Assembly (NCBI GenBank): GCA_024579835.1
Contig: CP102060.1
Span: forward strand, 3,361,043-3,425,042
Source: Clostridiaceae bacterium HFYG-1003
GTDB lineage: Bacteria; Bacillota; Clostridia; Clostridiales; Clostridiaceae
Direction of reading: 5' to 3'
Length of the DNA: 64,000 nucleotides
Both the position numbers and the translations under genes were made by a program. Positions 11,456 through 58,836 of this stretch are shown piece by piece. How positions within the stretch are numbered: the first letter of the stretch is position 1; each line of letters begins with the position of its first letter. The notes beneath the pieces were generated by a model, which searched no databases, was not told where the DNA came from, and saw nothing but the letters and a program-made list of their open reading frames with translations.

Positions 11456-11709
11456 CTGGCTATAATCCCATCTGTCCGATCCTGATGCTCTCAAACTTCA
11501 TAAATGACGGCATACCTCAGGTACATATGGACAGACAGGACATTGAGCTTGATTACCTCAGACGCTTCAATGTCCTCGTAGTCTGGGGCTCTCGGATCGA
11601 CGAAGCCATGAAAAACGACATTGCCATCGCTGAGCCCTATCGAATCCCGGCAACAACCTTAAGCGGCATCCTTACGGTTAAAAGCCACGGTCAGAAGACC
11701 CCCAAATAG
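11456..11709 (+). pseudogene. DUF4406-like gene, 3' part (copy A)
   Basis: Encodes GYNPICPILMLSNF.NDGIPQ..MDRQDIELDYLRR.NVLVVWGSRIDEAMKND, nearly the same as the complete gene at 34370-34789 but lacking its first 33 residues or so, replaced by AbiEi-derived DNA. The end is also altered (SHGQKTPK stop). A broken copy at the start of conjugative-element fragment A. Confidence 0.8.
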
Positions 11710-11789: not shown

Positions 11790-12194
11790 ATGGACGTATT
11801 GATTGTTGAACCTGAAAAAGCGCTGCGTATGGCCAGTATCACCGGCGACCTGAACTCTCTGCAGCAGGTTGTCGGCGGCTACATCGAAGCCGTCTATCCC
11901 TATGATGACCCGGTTGCCATCGTCTGCCATGAAGAAGGCAAGCTCATCGGACTCCCACTTAACCGAAAACTTGAGGACTACGACATCATCGCCGGAACCT
12001 TTATCGTCTGCGGGCTTGGCGAAGAGGATTTCGATTCCCTCACCCCAGAGCTGGCAGAAAAGTATCGGGAGAAATTTGCCGACCCGGAGATCTTCATGAA
12101 GATGGGCAGCCGTATAGTTGCCATTCCTATCAAGCCCAAGGACGAGCTGCATATGGCCAAACCGAAGCAGAAGTCCACGGAACCTGAGATTTAG
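11790..12194 (+). CDS. DUF3846 family protein (conjugative element), copy A
   Basis: 134 residues from ATG 11790, ribosome site AAGGGAGAAG. The sequence MDVLIVEPEKALRMASITGDLNSLQQVVGGYIEAVYP...GLPLNRKLEDYDIIAGTFIVCG fits DUF3846, a family common in conjugative elements and phages of Bacillota, function unknown. The copy at 40059 is nearly identical but has a stop codon, so this is the only intact copy in the window. In-frame upstream codons to 11724 lie in the hairpin and are not a likely start. Confidence 0.82.
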   Translation: MDVLIVEPEKALRMASITGDLNSLQQVVGGYIEAVYPYDDPVAIVCHEEGKLIGLPLNRKLEDYDIIAGTFIVCGLGEEDFDSLTPELAEKYREKFADPEIFMKMGSRIVAIPIKPKDELHMAKPKQKSTEPEI

Positions 12195-13733: not shown

Positions 13734-13744
13734 CATCACCCCTT

Positions 13745-33685: not shown

Positions 33686-33740
33686 ATCTACGCTGAAATA
33701 GCCAGGTTCGCCCATCGAACCTGGCTATTTCAGCGTAGAT
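33686..33740. terminator. Long perfect palindromic terminator
   Basis: A 24-bp stem (33687-33710 with 33716-33739, sequence TCTACGCTGAAATAGCCAGG...) with a 5-nt loop, followed by T-rich DNA. It closes the opp operon on the plus strand; its right arm also forms the last codons of the AbiEii remnant on the other strand. Confidence 0.8.
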
Positions 33741-34218
33741 TTTAGTCGGTCCCAGAGAGAGAAATGAGTTTGGTCAGTTGTGATGTCTATCTTCAGCATC
33801 TGTCGCGTTTTATCAAAGACGACTCCGATCGATACACGATACCCCGGATAGTCCGCTTCCTCTCGGATCTCTTCAATCCCTTGAAATGAAAATACAGCAT
33901 CGTCGTCAATCTGAGTTTTTAAGATGTTCTCAATGATCACCGTTAATTCTGTCTTAGATTGAGCCTGCCCTTTGATCGTTGCATCCATATCCATTGTGGT
34001 GCGCGCATCAATGCCAACCATCGCAGCGGCCTTAACATTCGATTGTCAGTAAGTTCATCAGGCAAAACATTAATCCCGGTAGTCACTCGTTCCAAATCGC
34101 CTGAGTGAGCAAGCAGGCGCAATCCTTCGTTTGAGACCCCGACTTCGTTTGCTTGGGCAGTAGTAACGATTCCGCCAGTTTGCTTCAGGACTGATTGAAG
34201 TTCATCGGGCATAGTCAT
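33725..34218 (-). pseudogene. AbiE toxin-antitoxin remnant (fused antitoxin start and toxin middle)
   Basis: ATG 34218 begins an AbiEi-type antitoxin (TMPDELQSVLKQTGGIVTTAQANEVGVSNEGLRLLAHSGDLERV) that stops matching after about 58 residues. In another frame the DNA then gives the AbiEii core MVGIDARTTMDMDATIKG...YPGYRVSIGV...IDITT. A deletion removed the antitoxin C-terminus and the toxin N-terminus; the toxin end is also lost. A third AbiE locus in the window, inactive. Confidence 0.8.
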
Positions 34219-34369: not shown

Positions 34370-34789
34370 ATGAAGAGACCTCTCTCCTATATCACCGCTT
34401 CCTGGGGCGTTGATCCAACTGAGAATACAGAGATTGCAACCAAATACAGCCGGAAGGTTTTCGACGCTGGCTACAATCCCATCTGTCCCATCCTGATGCT
34501 TTCAAACTTCATGGATGACGGCATCCCCCAGGAGCATAAGGACAGACAGGACATCGAGCTCGATTACCTCAGACGCTCCAACGTCCTCGTAGTCTGGGGC
34601 TCTCGGATCGACGAAGTCGTGAAAAACGACCTTGCCATCGCTGAACGCTATCGAATCCCGGCAACCACCTTAAGCGGTATCCTGACCGTTAAAACACCAC
34701 GGTCAGAAAAACCCTACAAGATAACAGAAGAATCCATTCCTGATTTTGCGCGTAACATTGGGAAAAAGGAATGTTTCGTGCATATTTAA
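34370..34789 (+). CDS. DUF4406/nucleoside deoxyribosyltransferase-like protein
   Basis: 139 residues from ATG 34370, ribosome site AAAGGAGTT. RPLSYITASWGVDPTENTEIATKYSRKVFDAGYNPICPI and VLVVWGSRID..VKNDLAIAERYRIPATTL resemble the Rossmann-like DUF4406 fold related to nucleoside 2-deoxyribosyltransferases. This is the only complete copy; the 3' part recurs at 11456, 36619 and 39918. The gene end contains a degenerate form of the conserved hairpin (34748-34782). The enzymatic role is not established. Confidence 0.7.
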   Translation: MKRPLSYITASWGVDPTENTEIATKYSRKVFDAGYNPICPILMLSNFMDDGIPQEHKDRQDIELDYLRRSNVLVVWGSRIDEVVKNDLAIAERYRIPATTLSGILTVKTPRSEKPYKITEESIPDFARNIGKKECFVHI

Positions 34790-34806
34790 AAATGGACGTT
34801 TCTGAA

Positions 34807-34846
34807 ATTGCACAAAACATTGGAAAAAAGGAATGTTTTGTGCAAT
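34807..34846 (+). promoter_or_regulatory. Conserved hairpin, perfect copy
   Basis: ATTGCACAAAACATT, loop GGAAAAAAGG, AATGTTTTGTGCAAT: a perfect 15-bp stem 22 nt before the AbiEi start. The best of the copies. It could be an operator, an RNA switch or a recombination site. Confidence 0.75.
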
Positions 34847-34867
34847 AATAGAAACGGAGGTGTTGTA

Positions 34868-35638
34868 ATGAAATATTTAGACAAACTAATTGAGTTGGGT
34901 TGTTTTTCACGGCAAGAAGTTGTTGACCTAATCGGAACCGAAAAAGCAGCACACTCAATACTAAACGATTATGTCAAAAACGGATATATTGATCGAATTC
35001 GAAGAGATCTATATACAGCAATCAGCCTTGAAACGAAGCAGCCTGTCGCAAACCGATTTTTAATAGCAACTCATATTGCTGAGGATGCTTATATTTCGCA
35101 TCACAGTGCATTTGAATACTATGGTTATGCTAATCAAGTTTTTCATGAGGTCTATGTATCGACAACCAGCAGATTCACTGAGTTTTCTTTTGATGGTATT
35201 ACCTTTACCAGGGTTTCTCCGAAAATTGATTCTGGAGTAATTACAACCAATACAGAAATCAGAGTCACGGATCTTGAAAGGACTGTCATCGATAGTATCT
35301 ATTCTTTTCAGAAAATTGGCGGTTTGGAAGAACTACTCCGTTGTCTGTTGCTGGTCCCTGCACTACAAGCTGATAAGCTGATAACCTATCTTGATGAATA
35401 TGGGCAGGTGAATTTGTATCAGAAATCCGGCTTCTTACTCAAGGAATTTGCTGAACAGTTGGGTCTTACAAAACTATTTTTTGATTACTGCAGGAGTAAA
35501 ATCTCCAAATCAAAAAGTTATCTGTATTCAGAAAAAGATGCCCTTTCCAAGCACTTTGTCCTACATAAAGATTGGATGATTTTTGCCCCTGAGAATATTA
35601 AATCAATCCTCAGTAAGGGGGTTGATCTCAATGCCTGA
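34868..35638 (+). CDS. abiEi: AbiEi-like antitoxin (second AbiE system)
   Basis: 256 residues from ATG 34868, ribosome site GGAGGTG. N-terminal winged helix (MKYLDKLIELGCFSRQEVVDLIGTEKAAHSILNDYVKNGYIDRIRRDLYT), then the type IV antitoxin region (ISHHSAFEYYGYANQVFHEVYV, RVTDLERTVIDSI). Only distantly like the antitoxin at 13137. It overlaps the toxin gene by 8 nt. In-frame codons upstream to 34808 fall in the conserved hairpin and are not a plausible start. Confidence 0.85.
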   Translation: MKYLDKLIELGCFSRQEVVDLIGTEKAAHSILNDYVKNGYIDRIRRDLYTAISLETKQPVANRFLIATHIAEDAYISHHSAFEYYGYANQVFHEVYVSTTSRFTEFSFDGITFTRVSPKIDSGVITTNTEIRVTDLERTVIDSIYSFQKIGGLEELLRCLLLVPALQADKLITYLDEYGQVNLYQKSGFLLKEFAEQLGLTKLFFDYCRSKISKSKSYLYSEKDALSKHFVLHKDWMIFAPENIKSILSKGVDLNA

Positions 35639-36578
35639 GTGGAACAAGTTATTGTCGGGGAAACAAGCTAAGGAACTTGGTTTTGTGCGAGATACATATG
35701 AGAAAGTTTGCAGATTGACTGATATACTGAAGTTTTTCGAAAATGACGCTTTGCTAGGGAACTCTTTGGCTCTAAAGGGCGGAACGGCCATCAACCTGAC
35801 AATTTTCAATTTGCCAAGGTTGTCTGTTGATATTGATCTGAATTTTTCAAAAAACGTCACTCGGGATGAAATGATGGCGACAAGATCAATCATCAATGAC
35901 CGAATCGAAAAATTTATGAAAGCTAACGGCTATTTGTTAAGTCCCAAATCGAAGCAATATCATGCTCTTGATTCTTTTGTTTATGAATACTCAAATTCAG
36001 GAGGCATGAAGGATAACATTAAGGTTGAAATCAACTATATGCTTCGCTGTCATGTTCTTGAAACTGGACAAAGACATTTTGTATCTTCCTGGGAACCAAC
36101 CGGCGTTTCTGTTTTTAGTGTGGCCCCCATTGAAATATTTGCAAGCAAAATCGTTGCTTTGATCAATCGAACGGCACCCCGAGATCTTTATGACATTTAT
36201 AACCTGGTGAAATTTGGGTTGATTGATGAATCAGAGGAGCCCATGCTCAGAAAGTGTGTTGTTTTTTACAGCGCGATAGGCGCGGAATCTCCGCCTTTTG
36301 AGTTCCAATTTAACACGATCGATCAAGTCACTCAGAATCGTATCAAGACAGACCTTTATCCTGTATTACGAAACAAGGACAAATTTGATCTTAAGACTGC
36401 TCAGATGCAAGTCAAGGCCTGGCTTGAATCGCTTCTAAAGCTTGAGGACAACGAACAGGAATTCCTGGATGCCTTTAGGAATAAGACATATCAGCCGGAG
36501 CTGCTTTTTGAATCAACCGAAATCGTAGAACGTATTCGGAACCACCCTATGGCACTCTGGAAGTGCTCACAAAAATAA
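35631..36578 (+). CDS. abiEii: AbiEii/AbiGii nucleotidyltransferase toxin (second AbiE system)
   Basis: 315 residues from ATG 35631 (ribosome site AAGGGGG), overlapping the antitoxin end. LALKGGTAINLTIFNLPRLSVDIDLNFS is the GG...DxD nucleotidyltransferase core; IFASKIVALINRTAPRDLYDIYNL is the second family block. The predicted action is nucleotide addition to an RNA target, with growth arrest when not countered by the antitoxin. It is followed within 45 nt by a DUF4406-like gene fragment. Confidence 0.87.
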   Translation: MPEWNKLLSGKQAKELGFVRDTYEKVCRLTDILKFFENDALLGNSLALKGGTAINLTIFNLPRLSVDIDLNFSKNVTRDEMMATRSIINDRIEKFMKANGYLLSPKSKQYHALDSFVYEYSNSGGMKDNIKVEINYMLRCHVLETGQRHFVSSWEPTGVSVFSVAPIEIFASKIVALINRTAPRDLYDIYNLVKFGLIDESEEPMLRKCVVFYSAIGAESPPFEFQFNTIDQVTQNRIKTDLYPVLRNKDKFDLKTAQMQVKAWLESLLKLEDNEQEFLDAFRNKTYQPELLFESTEIVERIRNHPMALWKCSQK

Positions 36579-36618
36579 ATACTGACTCAGGAATTCAAAT
36601 ATTGAAGCATCTTCATTC

Positions 36619-36716
36619 GAAGTTGCTGTGAAGAATGACATTGCCATCGCATCCCGGCAACCACCCTAAGCGGCATTCTTACCTTTAAGAGACACGGTCA
36701 AAATACCGCAAAATAG
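36619..36716 (+). pseudogene. DUF4406-like gene, short 3' fragment (after AbiE)
   Basis: About 98 nt match the end of the gene at 34370-34789 (GTGAAGAATGACATTGCCAT, CATCCCGGCAACCACC, AAGCGGCATTCTTACC), ending near its stop. The conserved hairpin does not follow here. It separates the AbiE block from the sigma-factor block. Confidence 0.75.
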
Positions 36717-36870
36717 CTCTGCGTTTAGTCTTTGTGACATCTCCAGCTTGCCTGTCATGAGTCTATTTGTAACTATATTAACCTATACCTTAATGGGTGT
36801 AATATAATACTTATAAATACGGAAGAATATGTTGCCGTGAGGTGAACAAATTAGAAAGGAGCGCTGAAAT

Positions 36871-37500
36871 ATGAAAAAGAGATCGAAGCGAATAATTATT
36901 GGTGTTATTGGATTTCTTCTCCTAACGGTGCTTGCCTTTGCGCTCTATTTCTATATGACTTTTTCAGGTAACATCATTGAGCGATTCAGCCAGCAAAGAG
37001 CAATCATTAAGGCATATGAAACAAGTTATGATGAAGATTTTAAGATTGTAAGTTCAAGCTACGACTATAAGCGCAAGGAATTTTCATTCAGGATATCTTC
37101 GCAGAGTCAGCCTGAAATAATATTCACTTCGACTCTGGATGAAGCGGACCGTATCGATCGATATGCGGCTGCCCGCAGTATAGATTATTTTCGTAAAGTC
37201 ATATCTGAAGCATTTGGTAATGACTTTGATGATCTGCAATACAAAGTCAACATCTTTGAGGAGTACAATTCACCGGATCTTCTCGAACGTGACATGACCA
37301 CTCGCCTAAGCCAGAACCAATATGTTGTTGATTTATCATGGGATCCGCCTGTCCTTGATACTTTGCAGGTTGATACCATTTTTAATGATATGACGCAGCG
37401 GATCTCAGCGCGTCTGGATACATCCATTGGCGGGCTGAAAATCCGCGCTGGAGTGTATGACGGAAAAGATTACTATATCACTGAGGTTGATCTAAGGTAA
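36871..37500 (+). CDS. Membrane-anchored protein of unknown function
   Basis: 209 residues, ATG 36871, ribosome site AAAGGAG. One N-terminal membrane segment (RIIIGVIGFLLLTVLAFALYF) after a basic KKRSKR start, then an extracellular domain with no family I can name. A terminator follows, so it is a single transcription unit next to the sigma-factor module; both may have arrived together as cargo. Confidence 0.7.
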   Translation: MKKRSKRIIIGVIGFLLLTVLAFALYFYMTFSGNIIERFSQQRAIIKAYETSYDEDFKIVSSSYDYKRKEFSFRISSQSQPEIIFTSTLDEADRIDRYAAARSIDYFRKVISEAFGNDFDDLQYKVNIFEEYNSPDLLERDMTTRLSQNQYVVDLSWDPPVLDTLQVDTIFNDMTQRISARLDTSIGGLKIRAGVYDGKDYYITEVDLR

Positions 37501-37539
37501 TCATCAATGATTAAGACGGAAGGGCTAATGCATCTTAAG

Positions 37540-37573
37540 GAACTGCCGCAAAGAGGCCGGCAGTTCTTTTTTA
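37540..37573 (+). terminator. Rho-independent terminator
   Basis: GAACTGCCG pairs with CGGCAGTTC, followed by TTTTTT. Confidence 0.88.
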
Positions 37574-37675
37574 TCCTGATACCCATCTTCTGAACAAAAA
37601 ATATAAACAAAAAATCAAAAATGAATGAACCGTTTGGTGTCGGCATTCGTATATGTTAGTAAGGGAGGTGGTAAA

Positions 37676-38167
37676 GTGCTCGATGATTACATAGAAAAAC
37701 ATGGAAGGCGCCTTTATGGTCTATGTCGGACACTGTGCCAAAACCCTGATGATGCCGATGATTTGTACCAGGAGACCTGGCTGAAGGTCCATCAAAAATT
37801 TGACCACTACAACCCTGAGTATGAATTTGAAGGTTGGCTGACACGGATCTGCGTTAACACCTACAAGGATCAGTTGCGAAAGAAAAAGCTCAGCCTGATC
37901 TTCGACCTGTTTGACTCTCAGGAGGCGAAGGACGCAGTACTTGAAAAAGCTGCCACAGAAGAAAAAGAGGACTTAAGTGACCTTCATGCTGCGGTGAAAA
38001 GACTTCCTGAAAAACTTCGACTGACAGTAGTCTTGTACTATTTCAGAGAGCTCGACATCGGTGAAACCGCAGCGATTTTAAATATTCCCCCGGGTACCGT
38101 CAAGTCCAGATTGAGTAAGTCCAGACTGCTGTTGAAGGAGATGATCAACGATGAAATTGAGCTATGA
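37676..38167 (+). CDS. ECF-type RNA polymerase sigma factor
   Basis: 163 residues from GTG 37676, ribosome site GGGAGGTGG. Region 2 (YGLCRTLCQNPDDADDLYQETWLKVHQKFDHYNPEYEFEGWLTRICVNTYKD) and region 4 (LPEKLRLTVVLYYFRELDIGETAAILNIPPGTVKSRLSKSR) are complete; a short linker joins them, as in ECF sigma factors. The next gene overlaps by 17 nt and encodes a small membrane protein, the usual place for an anti-sigma factor. It likely controls its own operon in response to an envelope signal. Confidence 0.9.
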   Translation: MLDDYIEKHGRRLYGLCRTLCQNPDDADDLYQETWLKVHQKFDHYNPEYEFEGWLTRICVNTYKDQLRKKKLSLIFDLFDSQEAKDAVLEKAATEEKEDLSDLHAAVKRLPEKLRLTVVLYYFRELDIGETAAILNIPPGTVKSRLSKSRLLLKEMINDEIEL

Positions 38168-38462
38168 TTTTGAACAATACCAGCCACCAAGACTCACTGA
38201 ACAGATGCTCAATGCTGTTTTTCAAAAACGCCGTGAAGTTCGGCGCATGTTCCTTTTTGCCGCGGCGTCCAATCTATTTCTGATCAGCCTTGCTCTTCTG
38301 GCGCTTGCGCTGGCCCCATACTCCATGCTAGCCAGTGTTATCTGTCTCGTATTCCTGGGAATTTACCTGTCGGTAAGTGGATTATTGACTGTCCTGCTTA
38401 CCAGAAAACTCATTGACCGTTACGGCAAAGCCTCTGCCGTACCCTTTGCACTCAATGCCTAA
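38151..38462 (+). CDS. Small membrane protein, possible anti-sigma factor
   Basis: 103 residues, overlapping the sigma gene. A short cytoplasmic N-terminus (MKLSYDFEQYQPPRLTEQM), then two membrane segments (about 35-58 and 62-85) and a basic tail. The position and topology suggest a partner or anti-sigma factor, but no zinc-binding anti-sigma motif is seen. Function inferred from context only. Confidence 0.55.
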   Translation: MKLSYDFEQYQPPRLTEQMLNAVFQKRREVRRMFLFAAASNLFLISLALLALALAPYSMLASVICLVFLGIYLSVSGLLTVLLTRKLIDRYGKASAVPFALNA

Positions 38463-38483
38463 ATCAGAAAGGAAGATGGATAA

Positions 38484-39776
38484 ATGGATGCAGCATATTT
38501 TTACCTAATTTTTGTCCTAGCACTGTTTCTGGTGCTCCCCATCCTCATCGGAGTCTATGTATATCGGGATGCTAACAGCCGTGGGATGAATGCAGCTCTT
38601 TGGACTTTGATTGCGGCTCTGGCCCCATCCGGTATTGGCTTGATCATCTACCTGGTGGTTAGATCAGATTATAATAGTTTGGAATGTCCCAATTGCAAGG
38701 CCCCAATCCTTGAAGAATACTCCTCTTGCCCTAAATGCGGAACGAGCTTAAAGGCTAAGTGTACTAATTGCGGTAAAGCGATCGCTTCCGGTTGGCAAAA
38801 CTGTGCTCATTGCGGAGAACCCGTTCCTGCAGATGCAATGATCCCTACCCTCCCAAAGCGTAAAGACAATGGGCTGGGCAAGATATTGGTGGCCGTCATA
38901 CTTATTCCCGTTCTAATCATATCCACTCTTGTTTTCGGGCTTGCCAGCTTCCGCAGCGGCCATCCGACCAGCGTTGGTTCAGTTGACGGGATGAGAGTCG
39001 AGGACTTCGGAAACAACAAAACAGTTTCGGATTGGTTTAAAAATTGCGATGCTTCCGGCAGAGGAATTTATGTTCTTGAATACCAGTATCCAAAAGATAA
39101 TTTAAATAATCTCAATCGGTCGAACTATATCGTCTATCGAACCGGTCTGACGAAGGATGTCAGTGTGGCAGCTGTTGGATACCAAAATTTCTTTAAGGAA
39201 TCTTTACGAATTGAGTACAATGATTCTGAAACCCCTGGAGTAAAAGACTATCATATTTATCAGGTAGACTACTCTACCACAGCAAAGGTTCAGCTTGAAG
39301 TCATTGTAAATGGCAAGAAAGCGGATTACAAATTGACCAGGTCCACTGAGCCCCTTATGTTCATCGAGTCGATCCCTTGGAGAAACGAAGCAGCGAATTT
39401 GTATAAGCTTCGCCTGGATTATCTTGGTGATAACTCAGGAGTTAGTCGACTGGTCAAAGAAACTGGGCTTGAATTCGCAGGGGACTATACCCTCGAGCTG
39501 AAAACTTCGGAAAAACCTTATGGTTTAAGAGTTATTTATACTGACGCGATCATGGATTTTGAAACGAATATCTACTCACCTTACGCCACAGAGCTACTTG
39601 GCTTAATCAAGAATCTGGACTATGTTGAAATCACCGACGGTGAAAGTACATTTCGGCTGACAGCAGATGAAGCTTCTCAAACTCTGGGTCATGATGTGAA
39701 GGACTTTGGAACAGATCCATCCAAGCTTGAAGCGTATCTTAAGTCAATCTACGGTGATAACCAGTTCGACCAGTAG
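38484..39776 (+). CDS. Zinc-ribbon membrane protein
   Basis: 430 residues from ATG 38484, ribosome site AAAGGAAG. Two N-terminal membrane segments, then a double zinc ribbon (CPNCKAPI...CPKCGTSL...CTNCGKAI...CAHCGEPV, about residues 68-115), a third membrane segment (about 133-155) and a large C-terminal extracellular domain. Last gene of the sigma-factor operon; a plausible sensor or effector of the envelope response, not assignable to a named family. Confidence 0.7.
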   Translation: MDAAYFYLIFVLALFLVLPILIGVYVYRDANSRGMNAALWTLIAALAPSGIGLIIYLVVRSDYNSLECPNCKAPILEEYSSCPKCGTSLKAKCTNCGKAIASGWQNCAHCGEPVPADAMIPTLPKRKDNGLGKILVAVILIPVLIISTLVFGLASFRSGHPTSVGSVDGMRVEDFGNNKTVSDWFKNCDASGRGIYVLEYQYPKDNLNNLNRSNYIVYRTGLTKDVSVAAVGYQNFFKESLRIEYNDSETPGVKDYHIYQVDYSTTAKVQLEVIVNGKKADYKLTRSTEPLMFIESIPWRNEAANLYKLRLDYLGDNSGVSRLVKETGLEFAGDYTLELKTSEKPYGLRVIYTDAIMDFETNIYSPYATELLGLIKNLDYVEITDGESTFRLTADEASQTLGHDVKDFGTDPSKLEAYLKSIYGDNQFDQ

Positions 39777-39890
39777 GTCAAATGACAACAGCTAAGCTTC
39801 AATTAATTATCCACCATGAAAGCAGATTTTGGTTTTCAACCTTGAGTATTATTAGTGAATAAAGCTATCAGAAACATGACGTCTATTCCA

Positions 39891-39915
39891 AACCACCTGA
39901 AAAGGTGGTTTTTTC
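39891..39915 (+). terminator. Rho-independent terminator
   Basis: AACCACCT pairs with AGGTGGTT, followed by TTTT, at the end of the sigma-factor module and immediately before the next backbone fragment. Confidence 0.85.
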
Positions 39916-39917
39916 AT

Positions 39918-39990
39918 TAAGTGGCATCCTGACCGTTAAAAGCGACGGTCAGAAAAACCCTACCAGACAACAGAAAAATCCATTCCTACT
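39918..39990 (+). pseudogene. DUF4406-like gene, short 3' fragment (copy B)
   Basis: TAAGTGGCATCCTGACCGTT, then CGGTCAGAAAAACCCTAC and AACAGAAAAATCCATTCCT match the last 75 nt or so of the gene at 34370-34789. It is directly followed by the conserved hairpin and DUF3846, as in copy A. Confidence 0.78.
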
Positions 39991-39991
39991 T

Positions 39992-40029
39992 TTGCACAAA
40001 ACATTGGAAAAAAGGAATGTTTCGTGCAA
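39992..40029 (+). promoter_or_regulatory. Conserved hairpin, copy B
   Basis: TTGCACAAAACATT, loop GGAAAAAAGG, AATGTTTCGTGCAA, one G-T mismatch in the stem; 29 nt upstream of the DUF3846 start. Confidence 0.72.
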
Positions 40030-40058
40030 TTTCAAAAACAGAAAAGGAGAAGAAATCC

Positions 40059-40463
40059 ATGGACGTATTGATTGTTGAACATGAAAAAGTGCCGCGTATG
40101 GCTAGTATCACCGGTGACCTGAACTCCCTGCAGCAGGTTGTCGGCGGCTACATCGAAGCCGTCTATCCCTATGATGACCCGGTTGCCATTGTCTGTCATG
40201 AGGAAGGCAAGCTCATCGGCCTCCCGCTTAACCGAAAACTTGAGGACTACGACATCATCGCCGGGACCTTCATCGTCTGAGGGCTTGGTGAAGAGGATTT
40301 TGATTCCTTGACGCCTGAGCTTGCCGAGAAGTATCGGGAGAAATTTGCTGATCCTGAGATCTTCATGAAGATGGGCAGCCGCATCGTCGCCATACCTATA
40401 AAGCCCAAGGGCGAACTGCATGTGGGCAAACCGAAACAGAAGTCCACAGAACCTGAGCTCTAA
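40059..40463 (+). pseudogene. DUF3846 gene, copy B, with nonsense mutation
   Basis: Nearly identical to 11790-12194 but TGC (Cys) has become TGA at 40278, removing the C-terminal 61 residues; the frame is otherwise open to 40463. Copy B is thus probably inactive for this gene. Confidence 0.85.
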
Positions 40464-41035: not shown

Positions 41036-42806
41036 CAGGAAAAATCAAGGGGATGCTCCTTTTAAACCTTCCCTATGTTCTCATTGCTCTGGCTGCCACG
41101 AAGCTGGGTGAGGCCTGGCGATACTCTCCCGGACTGGATATCTCCCAAAAAATCCTACATCTCATCGACGGATTCACTTTAGCTTTCCAATCACAATGGC
41201 CAAGCCTGCTTCCACAGGATCTGATCCTGGGCATTGGGATCTCAGTCGCCATCAAGCTGGCAGTTTATGTCAAAGGCCGGAACGCCAAGAAATACCGTAA
41301 AAACATCGAATACGGCTCAGCTCGCTGGGGCAGATCTGAGGACATCAAGCCTTTTATCGATCAAACCTTTCGAAACAACGTCATCCTCACGGAGACGGAG
41401 CGCCTGACCATGAACAACCGGCCCAAGGACCCCAGGCTCGCACGCAACAAAAACGTCATGGTGGTGGGAGGTTCCGGATCTGGCAAGACGCGGTTTTGGC
41501 TCAAGCCAAATCTCATGCAGTGCCATTCCAGCTATGTGGTCACCGATCCCAAGGGTAGCGTCGTAGTGGAATGCGGACAGCTTCTCCTGAGGGAAGGCTA
41601 CAGGATCAAGATCCTCAATACCATCAACTTCAACAAATCCATGCACTACAATCCCTTTGCCTACATCAAGAGCGAAAAGGACATCCTCAAGCTGGTGACG
41701 GCCCTCATCGCCAACACCAAGGGTGAAGGCAAAGCCGGAGATGATTTCTGGGTCAAGGCGGAGACCCTTCTTTATACCGCGCTCATGGGCTACATCCACT
41801 ATGAGGCTCCAGAAAGCGAGCGAAACTTTACAACCCTTATCGAGCTCATCAATGCCTCAGAGGTCCGCGAGGATGACGAGGACTTTCAGAACCCGGTGGA
41901 TTTGATGTTCGCCGCTCTGGAAGAGCGTGACTCGGAGCATTTTGCAGTCCGGCAGTATAAGAAATACAAACTGGCTGCCGGAAAGACCGCCAAATCAATC
42001 CTTATCAACTGCGGGGCCCGTCTGGCGCCCTTTGACATCAAGGAGCTCAGAGACCTGACGGCCTATGACGAAATGGAACTGGATGCCCTGGGTGATCGGA
42101 AAACGGCGCTGTTCATCATCATCAGCGACACCGACGACACCTTCAACTTCCTGGTTTCCATGGCCTACACGCAGCTCTTTAATCTGCTGTGCGACAAGGC
42201 AGATGACGTCTATGGCGGACGTCTGCCTGTGCATGTGCGCTGTCTCATTGATGAGGCGGCGAATATCGGTCAAATTCCCAAGTTGGAAAAGCTCGTAGCC
42301 ACCATCCGAAGCCGGGAGATCTCGGCCTGTCTGGTGCTGCAGGCCCAATCCCAGCTGAAGGCTCTGTATAAAGATCACTGCGACACCATCATCGGCAATA
42401 TGGACTGCACGATCTTTCTGGGCGGTAAGGAGCGCACCACATTAAAGGAGCTTTCAGAAACCCTTGGGAAAGAGACCATCGACACTTTCAACACCGGGGA
42501 AAGCCGAGGCCGTGAGGTTTCCCACAGTCTGAACTACCAGAAACTCGGAAAGAAGCTGATGAGCATCGACGAACTGGCCGTGCTGGATGGCGGCAAATGC
42601 ATCCTCCAGCTGCGTGGGGTACGGCCTTTTCTCTCCAACAAGTATGACATCACCAAACACCCCAACTACAGTACCTCTCCGATGCGGACCCGCGAAACGC
42701 CTTCAATATTGAGAAGTACCTGTCCACCCGTCTTAAGTCCAAGCCGGATGACATCTATGAGGTCTACCACATGGATCTGTTTGCCGAACCCGAAGCCGCT
42801 GAATGA
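41032..42806 (+). pseudogene. VirD4/TraG-type coupling ATPase, copy B, frameshifted near its end
   Basis: Reads through both N-terminal membrane segments (no stop at the Tyr that is mutated in copy A), Walker A VGGSGSGKTRFWLKPN, SVVVECG and LIDEAANIGQIPKLEKLVATIRS. At about 42669 one A is missing relative to copies A and C (AACTACAGTACC against AACTACAAGTACC), so the last 46 codons or so are read in a wrong frame ending at 42837; the original stop is 42804-42806. The ATPase core is intact and partial function is possible. Confidence 0.85.
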
Positions 42807-42850
42807 GCGGCTTTTTTCAACTCAAAATTTAAAATAATGGAGGTCAATCA

Positions 42851-42975
42851 ATGGAATTCTTTAACAGTGCAGTAGATGTACTTCAAACCCTCGTCGTCGC
42901 TCTCGGTGCAGGCCTTGCCATCTGGGGCGTCATCAACCTTCTCGAAGGCTACGGCAATGACAACCCCGGTGCCAA
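42851..42975 (+). pseudogene. maff2 gene, 5' part (interrupted)
   Basis: ATG 42851 starts EFFNSAVDVLQTLVVALGAGLAIWGVINLLEGYGNDNPGA and is then cut at 42975 by the tet transposon. The remaining 91 nt lie at 54596-54686. Joining the two gives exactly 216 nt, the length of the intact gene at 57115-57330. Confidence 0.9.
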
Positions 42976-43062
42976 TGCTCATGTACGGTAAGGAAGCAAG
43001 CAACCGAAAACAAGAGATAGACCGCCAGCACTACACTATTCCGAACCAAAGACCAAAAGATA

Positions 43063-43105
43063 AGCATTGTGGGAAAATCTAAACTTTTGGATTTTCCTAC
43101 AATGC
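43063..43105. repeat. Inverted repeat near the left end of the tet transposon
   Basis: GCATTGTGGGAAAATC pairs with GATTTTCCTACAATGC with one mismatch. It may be a recombinase-binding site or terminator; the 230 bp from 42992 to 43221 hold no gene. Confidence 0.5.
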
Positions 43106-43221
43106 CGACTACGGCGGAATCCTTCCCACTCCTTATATCTTTATTTCCGTATACATTGAATTTGTATTTAGTAAATGCTATAATGTCCCTATTCAAATTA
43201 TAAATGTGTTGAATTAGTTAC

Positions 43222-43464
43222 ATGTACATATTTTTTGTGCCGCATAAATACCCTGTTGAGGTTGTCGTTCTTTGTCCAGATGTGGAAACAATAAAAGGAA
43301 GGGAACGATACAGGGAGAAAACAGGCTATTCCGGCTTTACGGTTGAAACCTTATACGATACATTTATGCAGACAACACCACGGATCGGCTTTTGGCTGGA
43401 CAATTCCAACCAAACACCACAGCAGACAGCAGAAACCATTCTGAACGCCAGAAAGTCGGTATGA
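43222..43464 (+). pseudogene. P-loop kinase/AAA ATPase fragment
   Basis: 80 codons of which VVVLCPDVETIKGRERYREKTGYSGFTVETLYDTF resembles the C-terminal half of small P-loop kinases. There is no Walker A motif, so the N-terminal half is missing. It is a leftover beside the resistance gene. Confidence 0.5.
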
Positions 43465-43503
43465 TTGTTACATATAAGGGGAAGAAAAATTTCTTTTAGG
43501 TAC

Positions 43504-43532
43504 TTTCTTTCCTAAAACTAATGTGATATAAT
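43504..43532 (+). promoter_or_regulatory. Promoter of the tet gene
   Basis: Extended -10 box TGATATAAT (TATAAT at 43527-43532) with a weak -35 TTTCTT 17 bp upstream, before the leader ORF. Confidence 0.6.
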
Positions 43533-43561
43533 AGCATCATTCCAAAAAAGGAGTAAAAAAT

Positions 43562-43585
43562 ATGCGGCAAGGTATTCTTAAATAA
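43562..43585 (+). CDS. Tet leader peptide
   Basis: ATG CGG CAA GGT ATT CTT AAA TAA encodes MRQGILK behind AAAAAAGGAG. A matching sequence lies upstream of tet(M) in Tn916-type elements, where leader translation controls transcription attenuation. Confidence 0.6.
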   Translation: MRQGILK

Positions 43586-43752
43586 AACTATAATCAAATA
43601 GTGGGAACAAAGGATTATGATAGTCCCTTTTGTGGGGGCTTGGTTTTTTGTACCCAATTTAAGAATACTTTTGCCTTATCAATTTTGACATATCCGAAAA
43701 ACAGCAATCACAAACAGGTGTATGCTGTATATGTGTATGTCCGCAAATTATA

Positions 43753-43792
43753 ATCCCCAGTGGTAAAAGTATTTTACTGCTGGGGATTTTTA
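43753..43792 (+). terminator. Attenuator before tet gene
   Basis: ATCCCCAGTGGTAAAA pairs with TTTTACTGCTGGGGAT, followed by TTTTTAT, 35 nt before the Tet start. With the upstream leader it forms a transcription attenuator; ribosome stalling by tetracycline should allow read-through. Confidence 0.75.
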
Positions 43793-43826
43793 TGCCCTTT
43801 TGGGGCTGTAAAAGGAGGACAATCAC

Positions 43827-45746: not shown

Positions 45747-45827
45747 CATCTTGCGCAATGCAAACGTTCATTGCTGGCTATTGCGAAATATCATTGATAA
45801 AATCAGCATCAGAGAGGAGGAACCATT

Positions 45828-46282
45828 TTGAACCAGAAACAGACGGATATTACAACAGGAAAGCAAATACGTCATCTGCGAACACAATCGGGAATGACAC
45901 AGGAAGAACTGGCTGGGAAATTGAATGTTACCCGGCAGGCGCTATCGAATTGGGAGAGAGATGTTAATGAACCCGATTTAAATACGTTGAAAAAAATTTG
46001 TTTTCTTTTTGGAGTCCACATGGACGATTTTGCGAAGGAGGTAATAACAAAAATGGAAACATGTGAAAAAAAGAGAAACGACAATTTAATAAGTATGATA
46101 TGGCAATTGGACTTTTTTATGGTGTCGGGATATTTCTTGGCATTGGTATTTTCTTTGTTGGCGGTTTTATGACAATGTCGGGTGCAGGGTGGGGAGCATC
46201 ACTATTTGGCGGTGGCTGTTTTTCTCTTGTATTTGGCTTGATATGCCATGCAGTTATTACATTGAGAAGAAATGACAAATGA
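45828..46282 (+). pseudogene. HTH regulator with membrane tail, frameshifted
   Basis: TTG 45828 (ribosome site GAGGAGG) begins QKQTDITTGKQIRHLRTQSGMTQEELAGKLNVTRQALSNWERDVNEPDLNTLKKI, a Cro/CI-type HTH. At about 46090 the frame shifts: the hydrophobic tail MAIGLFYGVGIFLGIGIFFVGGFMTMSGAGW continues in another frame to 46282, as in full-length relatives with two C-terminal membrane segments. As it stands the first frame ends at 46172. A truncated but DNA-binding product is still possible. Confidence 0.65.
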
Positions 46283-46495
46283 TGACATATCCTGCTTTCT
46301 AGTCTTTTCGGTCATATCGCGTAAAAAAGCCGCTGCTTTTGGCTTTCCAATAGCGGCGGCAAAGGGAAATATCCTTTGAATACCTTACAGAAGAAAAGTT
46401 TTGCAGCATTATAAAAATAAAAGCCTATACCATTTTGGAAAGAAAAGATACATAATAGTCAAGACGGCAACAATCAGAAGTTATGGAGGGTAACA

Positions 46496-47263: not shown

Positions 47264-47467
47264 ATTCAAGTTTGCCGGATAAATAGCAAACCCGGCCGAG
47301 CCAGTCAACGGTCAAGATGAACGGGCTTCGCCCGCCGTTGACAGCCCCGCCCGGTTTTGCAGTTAGGCAGTCAAGGAGCGACAGCCTAAAGTGCTGCCGC
47401 CCCTTACTATCATAAAAAGCAACTACTAACCAGCCACAGCCCTTTTGGGAGGAAAGGGGGATTTTCC

Positions 47468-48107: not shown

Positions 48108-48154
48108 CCCTACCGCCTACAACTGAATAACCGCCGCTTCGCCGGCAACCAGAA

Positions 48155-48192
48155 AGCAGTAAATCTATTCAACAGATTTGCTGCTTTTTTTC
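48155..48192 (+). terminator. Rho-independent terminator
   Basis: AGCAGTAAATCT pairs with AGATTTGCTGCT, followed by seven T. Confidence 0.88.
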
Positions 48193-54503: not shown

Positions 54504-54511
54504 CCGCCCGA

Positions 54512-54544: not shown

Positions 54545-54595
54545 AACGGCAAAATTTTTTACACTTCTACTACTTCTTTATCACACATCAGCAAA

Positions 54596-54686
54596 GTCCC
54601 AGGGCATGAAGCAGCTCATGGCGGGCGGCGGTGTCGCACTGATCGGCATCGTACTGGTGCCGCTGCTTTCCGGTTTGTTTGGATAA
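54596..54686 (+). pseudogene. maff2 gene, 3' part (interrupted)
   Basis: GTCCCAGGGCATGAAGCAGC... encodes SQGMKQLMAGGGVALIGIVLVPLLSGLFG and the stop, in register with the 5' part at 42851-42975. Confidence 0.9.
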
Positions 54687-54740: not shown

Positions 54741-55298
54741 TTAGTTCATACTATCAACAAAATATTGTAGTTCACTTATTAGTTGTTTTTCCTTAGTATT
54801 ATTCATGGGTCCTAGTGAATATCCAGTTATTTCATACAGATTATTACCACGTTGAAATGTTCCAATTACTCGAGTGTACTCACCTTCCGGATAGTTTTCA
54901 CCTGGTTGAAAATCAGAATTAGCATTACTTACCGTCCACTTAACATCTTCATTCTTTTCATTAATCACTTTTGATGATGAAATAAATATTTGAAAAAATG
55001 AAGAATCCGATAGTTTCGTTGGTGTAATTACAATATTGTAACCATCCCAAGCGCCATATTGTTTACTTCTTTCTATTGATACACTCTCTTTTGAAGTGTG
55101 TAGATGTGGATTGTCTTTATTCGTTGAATAACTAGGTATAAGGATGCTGGAGTCTTTTAGAAATACATCAATCTCCTCAATCGTCGACAAATCTTTTGTA
55201 TTTACGAGATATTCATTAAAAATAAATGGTCGAGCTAAGAAGATTAAACTTGCTAATATAGCTATACCAATAAGCAGCAAAATAATTTTATTTTTCAA
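54741..55298 (-). CDS. Membrane-anchored protein of unknown function
   Basis: 185 residues, ATG 55298, with GGGGGC upstream. One N-terminal membrane segment (KIILLLIGIAILASLIFLA), then a 160-residue extracellular domain (WDGYNIVITPTKLSDSSFFQIFISS, GTFQRGNNLYEITGYSLGP). No family recognised. Leftward, AT-rich, downstream of the secreted cysteine protease-like gene; the two form a cargo module set against the conjugation genes. Confidence 0.68.
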   Translation of the reverse strand: MKNKIILLLIGIAILASLIFLARPFIFNEYLVNTKDLSTIEEIDVFLKDSSILIPSYSTNKDNPHLHTSKESVSIERSKQYGAWDGYNIVITPTKLSDSSFFQIFISSSKVINEKNEDVKWTVSNANSDFQPGENYPEGEYTRVIGTFQRGNNLYEITGYSLGPMNNTKEKQLISELQYFVDSMN

Positions 55299-55453
55299 GA
55301 TATGTTGCCCCCTTTATTTAACATTAAGTTAAGCAAGAAATCCAATATGGTAATTTCAAATGATTGGTTAATTAAATCGCTACACACAAAATCAATAATA
55401 GTTATTTTATGTTACCATAATTTTCAGTTTTTGTGTATAAGCTTTAATTACAT

Positions 55454-56563
55454 CTAAATATTGAATTTGTACATATAGGTTTCATAATTAGAGGGGACAT
55501 AAATTTTTGGCATAATATATCCTGATGTGCTGTTAACAACACTAGAATACCAACCGGTATGTATAAGAAAATCATAAGACCCATCGCTGGAGTACTTATA
55601 ACCATATACAGTCATCGTATGCCAGTCATACACGCCAGTAAATAGAGTTGTGGTTATCATACCAGGAATATTATTATCGATCTGATTCGTGATATAAGTT
55701 GGATTACTTCTGAATAATCGCCAGTCAACCGAAACAGTTGTGTTCGGTAAATGCTGAGATTTATATCTATTTACAGGGTTTCTTATGCCATCTGCATAGC
55801 TCATAGTCCCCATGCCGCAAGATATAAGGAGTAGGTGCAGTTTTTGTGCTTTTGCATAGGAGGTAGAAGAATAAGTTGTCCCAATGAGGTTTTCTGACAT
55901 ATATGTGCTATCTGGTACATACCAAGCTGAGCGAGTCCTATTAAGGTAAGTTAAAACAATACTCGTAGCGACGGCAGAGCAAGTCCCATTAACATTGTTA
56001 CCGAATGCCTGCCGTTGGATGCTTAGTGGCGATGATACAGAGACCGTTCTTATTAGACTTGCAGCACTTGCGTAAACTTGATCAGTTTGATAATTTAAAT
56101 TATTTTGTAAGACGCTCTCACCACTCGTTTCAGTAAGAATTACTCCTTTTATCTTTGGAGATTTAGTGTAATATTTATCTTCATTAATGCTAAAGTATTT
56201 ATCTTCTGTTTTTATATAGTAGCAGAGAGGCCCTCCATAATAAGGTTTTTCGTCTTTAAAGTTTGAAAATGGAACAATACAATCAAAACCATATTCCATA
56301 ACCTCCCCATTACTTATATCCAAGATGAGGTATGATGAACTATCAAAATACATGCGCCATTGGATTACTTCATTTTCGTTATAAAGATCCAGTGTTTGAT
56401 ATGTTCCATTGAAACCTTTGCTCTCAAGAACTGTATGATAAAAAGAATCAACATTGGGTGCAGCAAGAGGGGATTCATTGGCATTGTTCGCATATACCTG
56501 AATCGATGAAAATGCTAATAAAACTATCAACATGGTACAAATGGTTTGTTTTACAAAATTCAT
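55454..56563 (-). CDS. Secreted papain-like cysteine protease (putative)
   Basis: 369 residues, ATG 56563 behind TAGGAGG. Signal peptide to about residue 25 (TMLIVLLAFSSIQVYA). A propeptide-like region is followed by GNNVNGTCSAVATSIVLTYLNR with the probable catalytic Cys195, and VYDWHTMTVYGYKY with the probable catalytic His315, then DFLIHTGW. This is the layout of C39/C10 (streptopain-like) papain-fold peptidases, in which Cys-Gly-Pro is common; here it is Cys-Ser-Ala. Likely exported and processed. Activity is inferred from the motifs only. Confidence 0.7.
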   Translation of the reverse strand: MNFVKQTICTMLIVLLAFSSIQVYANNANESPLAAPNVDSFYHTVLESKGFNGTYQTLDLYNENEVIQWRMYFDSSSYLILDISNGEVMEYGFDCIVPFSNFKDEKPYYGGPLCYYIKTEDKYFSINEDKYYTKSPKIKGVILTETSGESVLQNNLNYQTDQVYASAASLIRTVSVSSPLSIQRQAFGNNVNGTCSAVATSIVLTYLNRTRSAWYVPDSTYMSENLIGTTYSSTSYAKAQKLHLLLISCGMGTMSYADGIRNPVNRYKSQHLPNTTVSVDWRLFRSNPTYITNQIDNNIPGMITTTLFTGVYDWHTMTVYGYKYSSDGSYDFLIHTGWYSSVVNSTSGYIMPKIYVPSNYETYMYKFNI

Positions 56564-56747: not shown

Positions 56748-57070
56748 CCTTCAACACCGGGGAAAGCCGAGGCCGTGAGGTTTCCCACAGTCTGAACTAC
56801 CAGAAACTCGGAAAGGAGCTGATGAGCATCGATGAACTGGCCGTGCTGGACGGCGGAAAATGCATTTTGCAGCTGCGCGGGGTACGGCCTTTTCTCTCCA
56901 ACAAGTATGACATCACGAAACACCCCAACTACAAGTACCTCTCCGATGCGGACCCGCGAAACGCCTTCAACATCGAGAAGTATCTGTCCACCCGTCTCAA
57001 GCCCAAGCCGGATGAAATCTATGAGGTCTACCACATGGATCTGTCCGCCGAACCCGAAGTCGCTGAATGA
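56748..57070 (+). pseudogene. VirD4 coupling protein, 3' fragment (copy C)
   Basis: Begins in mid-gene at TTCAACACCGGGG and encodes NTGESRGREVSHSLNYQKLGKELMSIDELAVLDGG...NIEKYLSTRLKPKPDEIYEVYHMDL to a normal stop. The only copy with the undamaged C-terminus, but it has no start or ATPase core. It is fused to AT-rich cargo DNA on its left. Confidence 0.88.
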
Positions 57071-57114
57071 GCGGCTTTTTTCATCTCAAAATTTAAAATA
57101 ATGGAGGTCAATCA

Positions 57115-57330
57115 ATGGAATTCTTTAACAGTGCAGTAGATGTACTTCAAACCCTCGTCGTCGCTCTCGGTGCAGGCCTTGCCATCTGGGGCGTCATCAA
57201 CCTTCTTGAAGGCTACGGTAACCATAACCCCGGTGCCAAGTCCCAGGGCATGAAGCAGCTCATGGCGGGCGGCGGTGTCGCCCTGATCGGCATCGTACTG
57301 GTGCCGCTGCTTTCCGGTCTGTTCGGTTAA
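57115..57330 (+). CDS. Maff2 family membrane protein
   Basis: 71 residues from ATG 57115, ribosome site ATGGAGG. EFFNSAVDVLQTLVVALGAGLAIWGVINLLEGYG and GGVALIGIVLVPLLSGLFG give two membrane helices, the size and topology of VirB2-like/Maff2 proteins of Tn1549-type conjugation systems. Intact version of the gene interrupted at 42975/54596. Confidence 0.83.
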   Translation: MEFFNSAVDVLQTLVVALGAGLAIWGVINLLEGYGNHNPGAKSQGMKQLMAGGGVALIGIVLVPLLSGLFG

Positions 57331-57344: not shown

Positions 57345-58213
57345 ATGGAAAGCATACTCGACAAAATCACCGAATGGCTGAAGACGATGCTTGTAGAAGG
57401 CATCATCACAAATTTGTCGGGGATGTTTGATAACGTCAACCAGCAGGTTGGCGAAATCGCAGGTCAAGTGGGATTGACGCCGGCGGCATGGAATGCCGGC
57501 GTCTTTTCCATGATCCGCAGCCTCTCCGAAAGCGTCATCATCCCCATCGCGGGCGTGATCCTTGCCTTTGTGATGACCTACGAGCTCATCCAAATGGTCA
57601 TCGACCGGAATAATCTTCATGACATCGATACCTGGATCTTTTTCAAATGGATCTTTATAACCTTTGTGGCCGTTCTTCTGGTTACCCATACCTTTGATAT
57701 CGTCATGGGCATCTTCGATATGGCGCAATCGGTAGTCAACAGCGCTTCCGGCGTCATTTCAGCGGACGCATCGGTGGATCTGGCCACCACAGTGGCAGAT
57801 CTTCAGACTCGTTTGACCTCCATGGAACTGGGTCCGCTCTTCGGACTCTGGTTTCAAAGCCTGTTTATCGGATTTACCATGCAAGCCCTGAGTATCTGTA
57901 TCTTCCTGGTCATCTATGGCCGCATGATCGAGATCTATCTGGTCACGTCGGTGGGGCCCATCCCCATGGCCACCATGGTCAACCGGGAATGGGGCGGAAT
58001 GGGACAGAATTATCTTCGCTCCCTTTTGGCCCTGGCATTCCAGGCCTTTCTCATTATGGTCTGTGTCGGCATTTATGCCGTCCTGGTGCAGAACATCGCC
58101 ACGGAAACTGACATCATCAAGCTGTATGGACCACCCTGGGCTATACCGTTCTGCTCTGTTTCACCCTGTTCAAGACCGGAAGTCTTGCCAAATCCATCTT
58201 CAATGCCCATTAA
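57345..58213 (+). pseudogene. TrbL/VirB6-like conjugation membrane protein, frameshifted near the end
   Basis: From ATG 57345: amphipathic start, then five or six membrane segments (VIIPIAGVILAFVMTYELIQMV, WIFITFVAVLLVTHTFDIVMG, LFIGFTMQALSICIFLVIYG, SLLALAFQAFLIMVCVGIYA). At about 58121 a base is missing: another frame gives GYTVLLCFTLFKTGSLAKSIFNAH with stop at 58211-58213, the expected last membrane segment. The current frame ends at 58232 with an unrelated tail. Part of the type IV channel; function after the shift is uncertain. Confidence 0.78.
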
Positions 58214-58219
58214 GCGAAA
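58188..58219. repeat. 32-nt direct repeat of the trbL end, copy 1
   Basis: CCAAATCCATCTTCAATGCC plus the following 12 nt. It recurs at 58793-58824 with three mismatches, flanking the small leftward gene. Confidence 0.8.
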
Positions 58220-58333
58220 AGAGGAATTCTGATAATTCCATCTTAAAATACGCACATGAAAAAACGGCCAATGTACTTTGGCCGCAATGCTTGTGTAGTT
58301 TAGTAGGGACTCTTGGACAAAATCTTGTGGGAT

Positions 58334-58645
58334 TTACTCATTGAGAACGTAGAAAAATCCTTCCCAGTCCCAAAAAGCATAGATGTACTTGTCCTCTGTA
58401 TCGCCCTTTACTGAATAGAGACGAACGGCTGATTCATTGTACTTTGCCTTGCCTAAATACTTACCCTTATCAGCAATTGTAAAGTCCAGGCCATTGATCT
58501 GCCGATATTCTGTTTCTCCGATTGTGAGGATGTTCCACTCTGCGCCGGTAATTTCACCGATGACTCGACTCTCCCTAGAAACGTACAAAGCTGTAACTAG
58601 AACTAGGATACCCAAAACAACTATAAGCACAGTCTTTTTTCTCAA
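58334..58645 (-). CDS. Small membrane-anchored protein
   Basis: 103 residues from TTG 58645, ribosome site GGGAGGTG. RKKTVLIVVLGILVLVTALYV is a membrane anchor; a small extracellular domain follows (EYRQINGLDFTIADKGKYLGKAKYNESAVRLY). No family recognised. It lies opposite to the conjugation genes between two copies of a 32-nt repeat, so it is cargo rather than a backbone gene. Confidence 0.62.
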   Translation of the reverse strand: MRKKTVLIVVLGILVLVTALYVSRESRVIGEITGAEWNILTIGETEYRQINGLDFTIADKGKYLGKAKYNESAVRLYSVKGDTEDKYIYAFWDWEGFFYVLNE

Positions 58646-58792
58646 TGGCACACCTCCCAACCAAATTTATTAAATATCAGGATAAAAATCATGGAAAAAT
58701 TCATTGATATCAAATCAATTATATCATTTGCGCATTGCTCATCGTGAGCAGTTTTTCTCGAATCTAAATCACTCGACAGAAGTGTATTCTCA

Positions 58793-58824
58793 CCAAATCC
58801 ATATTCAATGCCCACTTAGCGAAA
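58793..58824. repeat. 32-nt direct repeat of the trbL end, copy 2
   Basis: CCAAATCCATATTCAATGCC plus 12 nt, 29 of 32 identical to 58188-58219, immediately before the prgI ribosome site. Confidence 0.8.
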
Positions 58825-58836
58825 GGAGAAAAGCCT

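Follow-up and report, generated by a model that had tools for sequence, protein, structure and literature searches.

Integrative and conjugative elements (ICEs) of the Tn1549/CTn type, to which we take the element described here to belong, have their transfer genes in the order VirD4-Maff2-TrbL-PrgI-VirB4. The same order is found in the window, as we call the stretch of DNA that was analysed: the final 64 kb of the 3,425,042-base, single-contig genome of Clostridiaceae bacterium HFYG-1003 (GCA_024579835.1, contig CP102060.1, positions 3,361,043 to 3,425,042). Searches gave the family names CD1115 for VirD4, CD1112 for TrbL and CD1110 for VirB4. The window differs from such backbones by a neighbourhood in which a DUF7768 gene, a palindromic leader and a DUF3846 gene follow one another, found in a small sub-family only. 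Here, and at other backbone sites, several blocks of cargo genes are followed by a repeated 3′ end of the backbone gene that precedes them.

Three other systems are comparable in part. In the SXT/R391 ICEs, a family unrelated to the window element, cargo is likewise intergenic (hotspots HS1-HS5), elements are mosaic and homologous recombination between ICEs is the likely source (PMC2791158, PMC2786100). Hybrid ICEs form mostly via recA (PMC2786100), and the recombination mechanism and selection were not distinguishable to the authors of PMC2791158. By contrast, repeated gene tails are the hallmark of the window family, while the word “duplication” is absent from the main text of PMC2791158. 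In accretion of ICESt1-type cis-mobilizable elements (CIMEs), stacked blocks are parted by gene-end repeats as in the window (PMC5704250), but the window has several target genes, variable borders, no clear common core and no integrase found in the block. Finally, in pneumococcal transformation merodiploids, alternative repeat pairing allows a donor fragment with one repeat to leave a duplication at a hybrid repeat, as may be the case here; the duplications are ~100-900 kb and arise by transformation (PMC3784515), whereas the tails of the window are 39 to ~580 bp and belong to a mobile element. Gene-tail scars in this element family are absent from the titles and abstract openings that searches of the open PubMed Central set listed.

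We propose that the tail-bounded cargo may represent scars of homologous recombination between related elements in one cell, anchored in gene ends, an explanation to which, on sequence comparison, we give about an even chance. Of the two mechanisms offered by an initial annotation of this DNA, repeated integration and homologous capture, the second is the better fit, because tails of different allele type adjoin and one tail tract appears to have been exchanged; integration is not favoured. The single-gene hot spot with a common breakpoint that had also been suggested is not supported, as start points vary, three further backbone sites are scarred and there is no clear core.

Repeated DUF7768 ends in the window and its relatives

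The main block consists of a complete DUF7768 gene, leader units hp1 and hp2, AbiEi-AbiEii, gene-end fragment 2 (frag2), a membrane protein, an extracytoplasmic function (ECF) sigma module, fragment 3 (frag3), leader hp3 and DUF3846. Its first gene had been called DUF4406-like; a complete gene does stand there, but its Pfam family is DUF7768. The features of the block and of its counterpart, copy A, are:

34370..34789, + strand: complete DUF7768 gene (Pfam PF24963, E 3.5e-13; homologues or pieces in 10 loci)
34736..34797, + strand: leader unit 1 (hp1), palindromic, overlapping the DUF7768 gene end
34798..34859, + strand: leader unit 2 (hp2), 62-nt tandem of hp1, immediately 5′ of AbiE (hp1-hp2-AbiE border also in locus L013)
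34868..35638, + strand: AbiEi-type antitoxin/regulator, cargo (Pfam AbiEi_1, barely above cut-off)
35631..36578, + strand: AbiEii-type nucleotidyltransferase toxin, cargo (Pfam AbiEii, E 4.6e-24)
36617..36717, + strand: frag2, DUF7768 gene end, A-type allele, without leader (98.0% identity to locus L014)
36871..37500, + strand: membrane protein of 209 aa, cargo (weak YfjL_N match, below cut-off; L014 DNA 93.6% identical over 36718-37500)
37676..38167, + strand: ECF sigma factor, cargo (Pfam Sigma70_r2, Sigma70_r4_2)
38151..38462, + strand: small open reading frame (ORF) of the ECF module, cargo (no NCBIfam or Pfam match)
38484..39776, + strand: double zinc ribbon (DZR)/DUF4825 protein, cargo (Pfam DUF4825, DZR)
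39917..39990, + strand: frag3, DUF7768 gene end, B-type allele (by sequence comparison)
39992..40029, + strand: palindromic leader 3 (hp3)
40059..40463, + strand: DUF3846 gene, copy B, broken by an in-frame stop
11456..11709, + strand: DUF7768 of copy A, 5′ truncated, empty site
11790..12194, + strand: DUF3846 of copy A, intact (Pfam DUF3846, E 1e-34)

The repeated ends lie where they had been annotated, with bounds set here at 36617-36717 and 39917-39990. When the window is compared with itself, 34670-34792 matches 39917-40037 (87% identity, E 2e-34), and frag2, in which ~13 nt are absent internally compared with the complete DUF7768 copies, matches copy A (83% identity in 72 nt, E 3e-14) as well as full-length DUF7768 (82% in 67 nt, E 2e-9). 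Among the three DUF7768 ends of the block, the sole one that runs into DUF3846 is the last, frag3. The frame of this DUF3846 stops early near 40280 (ORF 40017-40280), a point past which copy A continues, and DUF3801, VirD4, Maff2 and TrbL genes follow 3′ of DUF3846 (Pfam/NCBIfam). As the initial annotation stated, the gene end of copy A passes directly into DUF3846, and 11456-12194 is a cargo-free version of the site. The absence of a recombinase from the block was also borne out: five main ORFs have no match to recombinase families in Pfam and the sixth (38151-38462) matches nothing, while tyrosine recombinases give 12 matches genome-wide, none of them inside the window.

Beside the truncated copy A there is a cluster of insertion sequences at 5113-10880 (three IS200-like Y1 transposase ORFs, an IS3-like one and a Mu/TniB-type pair), a possible cause of its 5′ loss. 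Additionally, traces of a third AbiE pair are seen 5′ of DUF7768 in both copies (33725-34218 and 11424-11458).

A pattern scan of 84,980 species genomes (genome_contigs collection) returned 10 loci. DUF7768, leader and DUF3846 stand without cargo in six of them, namely in Papillibacter (L005), UBA12138 (L006), Youngiibacter (L007), Sinanaerobacter (L008), L009 and L010, and there is no cargo between DUF7768 and DUF3846 in Proteiniclasticum ruminis ML2 (L011) either, where DUF3846 is broken off. In L012, DUF7768 is reduced to its first 25 codons; after it come two large minus-strand ORFs (8214-13025) that resemble hsdR and hsdS by eye. The metagenome-assembled genome (MAG) STD2_205 (L013) has a broken DUF7768 followed by hp1, hp2 and AbiE, and P. 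ruminis DSM 24773 (L014) contains a partial AbiEii, then frag2, the membrane gene, frag3, leader and DUF3846. Because L014 thus shows frag2 again together with the sequence on either side, and frag3 together with the junction 5′ of it, and L013 the left AbiE border (leader-leader-AbiE), an assembly error is an unlikely source of these junctions. The two P. ruminis strains share the same neighbouring chromosome, with an interval of 0.9 kb (empty) in ML2 and of 4.8 kb (loaded) in DSM 24773 (genome G193); in the latter, a 341-bp probe matched only frag3 and frag2, and complete DUF7768 was not found. Cargo bounded by copies of a backbone-gene end, and empty sites in relatives, are consequently both observed.

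In L014 the membrane gene is followed by frag3 with no ECF module between them, while part of the module's last gene (DUF4825/DZR) is found on the far side of AbiE. The module was thus either gained or lost by a block that has the same frag3 border in both. A homologue of the module is present in P. ruminis genomes (L133 16110-17823 and L135 3489-5193; 69% DNA identity over ~565 bp), 16-22 kb away from the element remnant, with weaker homologues (65-67%) in G982 and G985; the P. ruminis copy is a possible source of this cargo.

In the samples searched, the DUF7768-leader-DUF3846 neighbourhood is confined to a small sub-family. Wider DNA searches found matches in 5/206, 5/225, 10/391 and 4/398 genomes (overlapping samples, own genome included), and those of the class and phylum samples, own genome excepted, span just 25 to 63 query bases; with so few matches, the sample of the sub-family is small. 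Three of 80 genomes of the Sinanaerobacter locus's family match: G983 (which holds L008), G985 and G1048 (332 bases of the DUF7768 region, 65%). In phages, plasmids and viral contigs, no relative of the DUF7768-DUF3846 pair was found apart from a single short match to the DUF3846 region in plasmids and another in phages.

Gene ends at other backbone sites and their allele types

When 14 sequences were each compared with themselves, three of them (L035-L037) overlapping L014, L011 and L007, repeated ends appeared in L008 and in the window. The comparison missed the frag2/frag3 pair of L014 as well as the L013 leader tandem, and “no repeat” here therefore means none of at least ~40 bp at ~80% identity. 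Together with L014, the scar is seen at four backbone sites: DUF7768 (window, L014), DUF3846 (L008), TrbL (window, L008) and VirD4/Maff2 (window). In L008, the final 105 bp of DUF3846 are repeated (83%) after ~1.6 kb of cargo and the final 42 bp of TrbL after ~0.56 kb; in the window, 39 bp of the TrbL end are repeated after cargo related to that of L008, and the VirD4 end plus Maff2 (~580 bp, 95%) after two ORFs at 54741-56563. The corresponding features of the window are:

42487..42975, + strand: VirD4 3′ end and 5′ part of maff2, proximal copy
54591..54686, + strand: 3′ part of maff2, proximal copy (maff2 is split by an element at ~42976-54590)
54741..56563, - strand: cargo between the two VirD4/Maff2 copies, two ORFs without Pfam match
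56748..57330, + strand: repeated VirD4 3′ end and complete maff2, distal copy
58188..58226, + strand: TrbL 3′ end, proximal copy
58334..58660, - strand: 108-aa cargo ORF between the TrbL end copies (no match in NCBIfam or Pfam)
58793..58831, + strand: repeated TrbL 3′ end running into PrgI, distal copy

The repeats thus range from 39 to ~580 bp and their start points differ, also within one gene, since frag2 and frag3 start at different DUF7768 bases. Empty counterparts exist at TrbL (L005) and at DUF3846 (L006, L009, L010 and copy B of the window), and the gaps DUF7768-DUF3846, DUF3846-DUF3801, Maff2-TrbL and TrbL-PrgI, empty in some cases and occupied in others, are variable DNA between conserved backbone genes. 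In a hand tally of the close family, in which short or diverged repeats may have been missed, five of nine cargo insertions are followed by a repeated tail of the gene that precedes them. The five are AbiE (with frag2), the membrane block (with frag3), the XRE-like block of L008 (with a DUF3846 tail), the cargo at 54741-56563 (with VirD4/Maff2) and that at TrbL. In none of the nine was the head of the next gene seen to be repeated.

The DUF3846-DUF3801 gap holds a TIR/SEFIR gene in L005 (9286-10230), a weakly XRE-like gene in L008 (8899-9723) and, in copy A of the window (12310-13739), a second AbiE pair on the minus strand. At its end (42670-42837), the proximal VirD4 has its final residues in a different frame from L005 and L008, while the distal repeat retains the frame of the relatives. 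The 11.6-kb element that splits maff2 encodes a tetracycline ribosomal-protection protein (TetM/W/O/S family), a methyltransferase, a relaxase and a serine recombinase, and is very like IME_Rho_tet (PMC12904643) in gene content and in its maff2 insertion.

Two allele types of the DUF7768 end occur in the window: the complete gene and frag3 have the long B type, and frag2 has the short A type. The distal DUF3846 tail of L008 is 92.9% identical to copy A of the window (92 of 99 aligned of 105) and 91.7% to L006, but only 82.9% to the proximal copy of L008 itself, which shows that tails need not be local copies. Additionally, identity between the window and L014 is 94-98% from AbiEii through frag2 to the membrane gene, and hp3 and DUF3846 reach 97.1% and 93.1%, whereas in the frag3 tract the two agree in 46/78 columns (59.0%) and the window agrees there with L006 in 85.9%. 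The divergence of this tract has a binomial P of 2e-10 against the pooled mismatch rate of the membrane gene, hp3 and DUF3846, and the tract looks like a short one exchanged between elements at the repeated end.

Proposed recombination between related elements and its alternatives

The family carries conjugation genes (VirD4 of the CD1115 family, Maff2, TrbL, PrgI and VirB4). We may picture exchange between its members as follows. A donor element would have cargo joined to the truncated end of a backbone gene X and, behind it, the next gene, the arrangement seen in P. ruminis DSM 24773. A crossover in the homologous X end and the backbone downstream would import the cargo, and its opposite end would join directly after the resident's complete X, an outer join that is unproven and possibly illegitimate. 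Because selection would favour intact backbone genes, surviving joins should fall between genes, and the incoming X tail would persist as a remnant after the cargo. If the process were repeated between DUF7768 and DUF3846, it would yield the three stacked ends of the window, and the repeated ends would offer RecA homology for later deletion or movement of blocks.

Several observations weigh against this explanation. The left joins have no proven homology, and half of each event is therefore assumed; the independent events are few, about five; and the TrbL repeat, of 39-42 bp, is short for RecA. The tails are without exception 3′ ends, and no such polarity is expected from plain recombination; four of the nine insertions lack a repeated tail (AbiE-2, which sits 5′ of DUF7768, AbiE-1 and the TIR gene, which sit behind DUF3846, and the ECF module). 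The exchange in the frag3 tract is less striking (P 0.0012) against the rate of the 65 columns just upstream, themselves 81.5% identical between the window and L014. Likewise, L014 does not have the left side of the cargo, which makes the side-by-side comparison of ancestry weak, and copy B DUF7768 has no clear nearest relative (its 5′ half is 90.5-89.6% identical to L005, L007, L008 and L006); the 3′ half of DUF3846 alone is clearly closest to L014 (91.9% against 87.4%). Finally, among 20 distant type IV secretion system (T4SS) regions, seven have a TrbL-PrgI gap of at least ~400 bp and none of these seven has a repeated TrbL end (12 have no such gap, and the piece from L080 excluded PrgI). 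Self-repeats in the 20 regions, a palindrome at four places in L080 and tandem Maff2 pieces in L082, are not TrbL ends. The distant family thus speaks against a universal scar. In viral loci with DUF3801 (L143-L147, 49-60% identical), self-repeats of 49 bp (L143, within a run of short GC-rich repeats) and 33 bp (L146) were seen.

Site-specific accretion of the CIME type at gene 3′ ends, weaker than recombination between elements, is in our judgement unlikely. It yields the same geometry of complete gene, cargo and repeated gene end in stacked form (PMC5704250), and integrative and mobilizable elements with serine recombinases do target ICE genes, as the one that occupies maff2 in the window. 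However, recombinase families are absent from the window block and tyrosine-recombinase matches from the window (cargo of the relatives was only partly scanned), and four sites would require several specificities. The best shared 14-mer between gene ends scores at shuffle level for 5/6 pairs, which thus give no common core; the DUF3846/TrbL pair has a 12-of-14 match, above all 20 shuffles, and this counts against our preferred explanation. The DUF7768 copies overlap one another, and a core inside this one gene remains compatible with the data. Accretion also agrees poorly with the VirD4/Maff2 repeat, which covers an entire gene, and with the different start bases of frag2 and frag3.

We place somewhat lower a local tandem duplication or illegitimate joining, in which the gene end would be copied in place, in the course of repair or replication, and cargo would land between the copies without any donor element. 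The variable repeat length (39 to ~580 bp) would be expected from such a process, and the 62-nt leader tandem 5′ of AbiE resembles one. By contrast, the tails differ in allele type, the distal tail of L008 is closer to other elements than to the local copy, and another species has the AbiEii-frag2-membrane block at 94-98% identity.

The palindromic leader and the uptake of cargo

The leader, a 62-nt unit with a palindrome of 14-bp arms, is doubled in tandem at 34736-34859, just 5′ of AbiE, and its palindromes lie at 11726-11760, 34748-34844 and 39994-40028 of the window. In 14 aligned copies, AACAT and AATGT are invariant in the two arms. Stem covariation in these 14 sequences (13 distinct) is 0.085 compared with 0.083 after shuffling, with 217/500 shuffles as high, and an Rfam search at E up to 1 found nothing at the leader and a single match elsewhere (MIR1886, 23.8 bits for a gathering threshold of 62). 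Single-strand folding stability has z values of -6.5 for hp2 and -1.9 for hp3. As the stem has no covariation and Rfam no match there, a structured RNA was rejected; the leader is more likely a dyad DNA operator common to AbiE and DUF3846. A genome-wide repeat was also rejected, since its 30 matches (11 genomes, both strands counted) fall in element copies already known or at one chromosomal place. The core of integron attC sites is GTTRRRY; with this motif in 0/14 leader copies on either strand and no tyrosine recombinase in the window, an integron cassette array was discarded too. A longer palindrome of the leader kind lies between convergent chromosomal genes in the Youngiibacter genome (L100, ~1508-1567), and the ~26-bp palindrome of L080 (G450; 471-496, 900-942, 1421-1462 and 2619-2647), found once before Maff2 and once directly after TrbL, is a possible parallel.

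That the leader itself serves for recombination, as an integron-like site or one used by a single-strand transposase, and mobilises the genes joined to it, is very improbable. In its favour, it stands 5′ of two different genes (DUF3846 and AbiE), a related palindrome stands alone between convergent genes in the Youngiibacter genome and distant L080 has a different palindrome at four places. However, frag2 has no leader. Leader patterns match four times in the window, always at DUF3846 or AbiE, and once in L008; they were not found at the TrbL, VirD4/Maff2 or distal DUF3846 scars. The leader is present in 4/200 genomes of the family, the chromosomal copy is the one match among the 30 that lies outside known element loci, and the attC core is missing from every copy.

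If the leader is a shared operator, a captured AbiE would come under the same regulation as the resident gene. More generally, gene-tail scars would record the path of insertion, because they reveal the side entered by homology and the allele type of the source; they lend themselves to automated searching, and they predict recA-dependent circles and precise loss between tails. A further step, which we hold to be doubtful, is that a block bounded by tails of one backbone gene would be an integrase-free mobile cassette, able to circle out via its tails and to enter related Tn1549/CTn-type elements at the same gene end. If so, gene-tail capture would be a general, polar route of cargo loading in these elements, and the bias towards 3′ tails (5/5 repeat-bearing insertions, no repeated heads) would reflect selection or the direction of conjugative transfer. 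The question that such scars address is how conjugative elements take up defence and other cargo when the cargo itself holds no recombinase.

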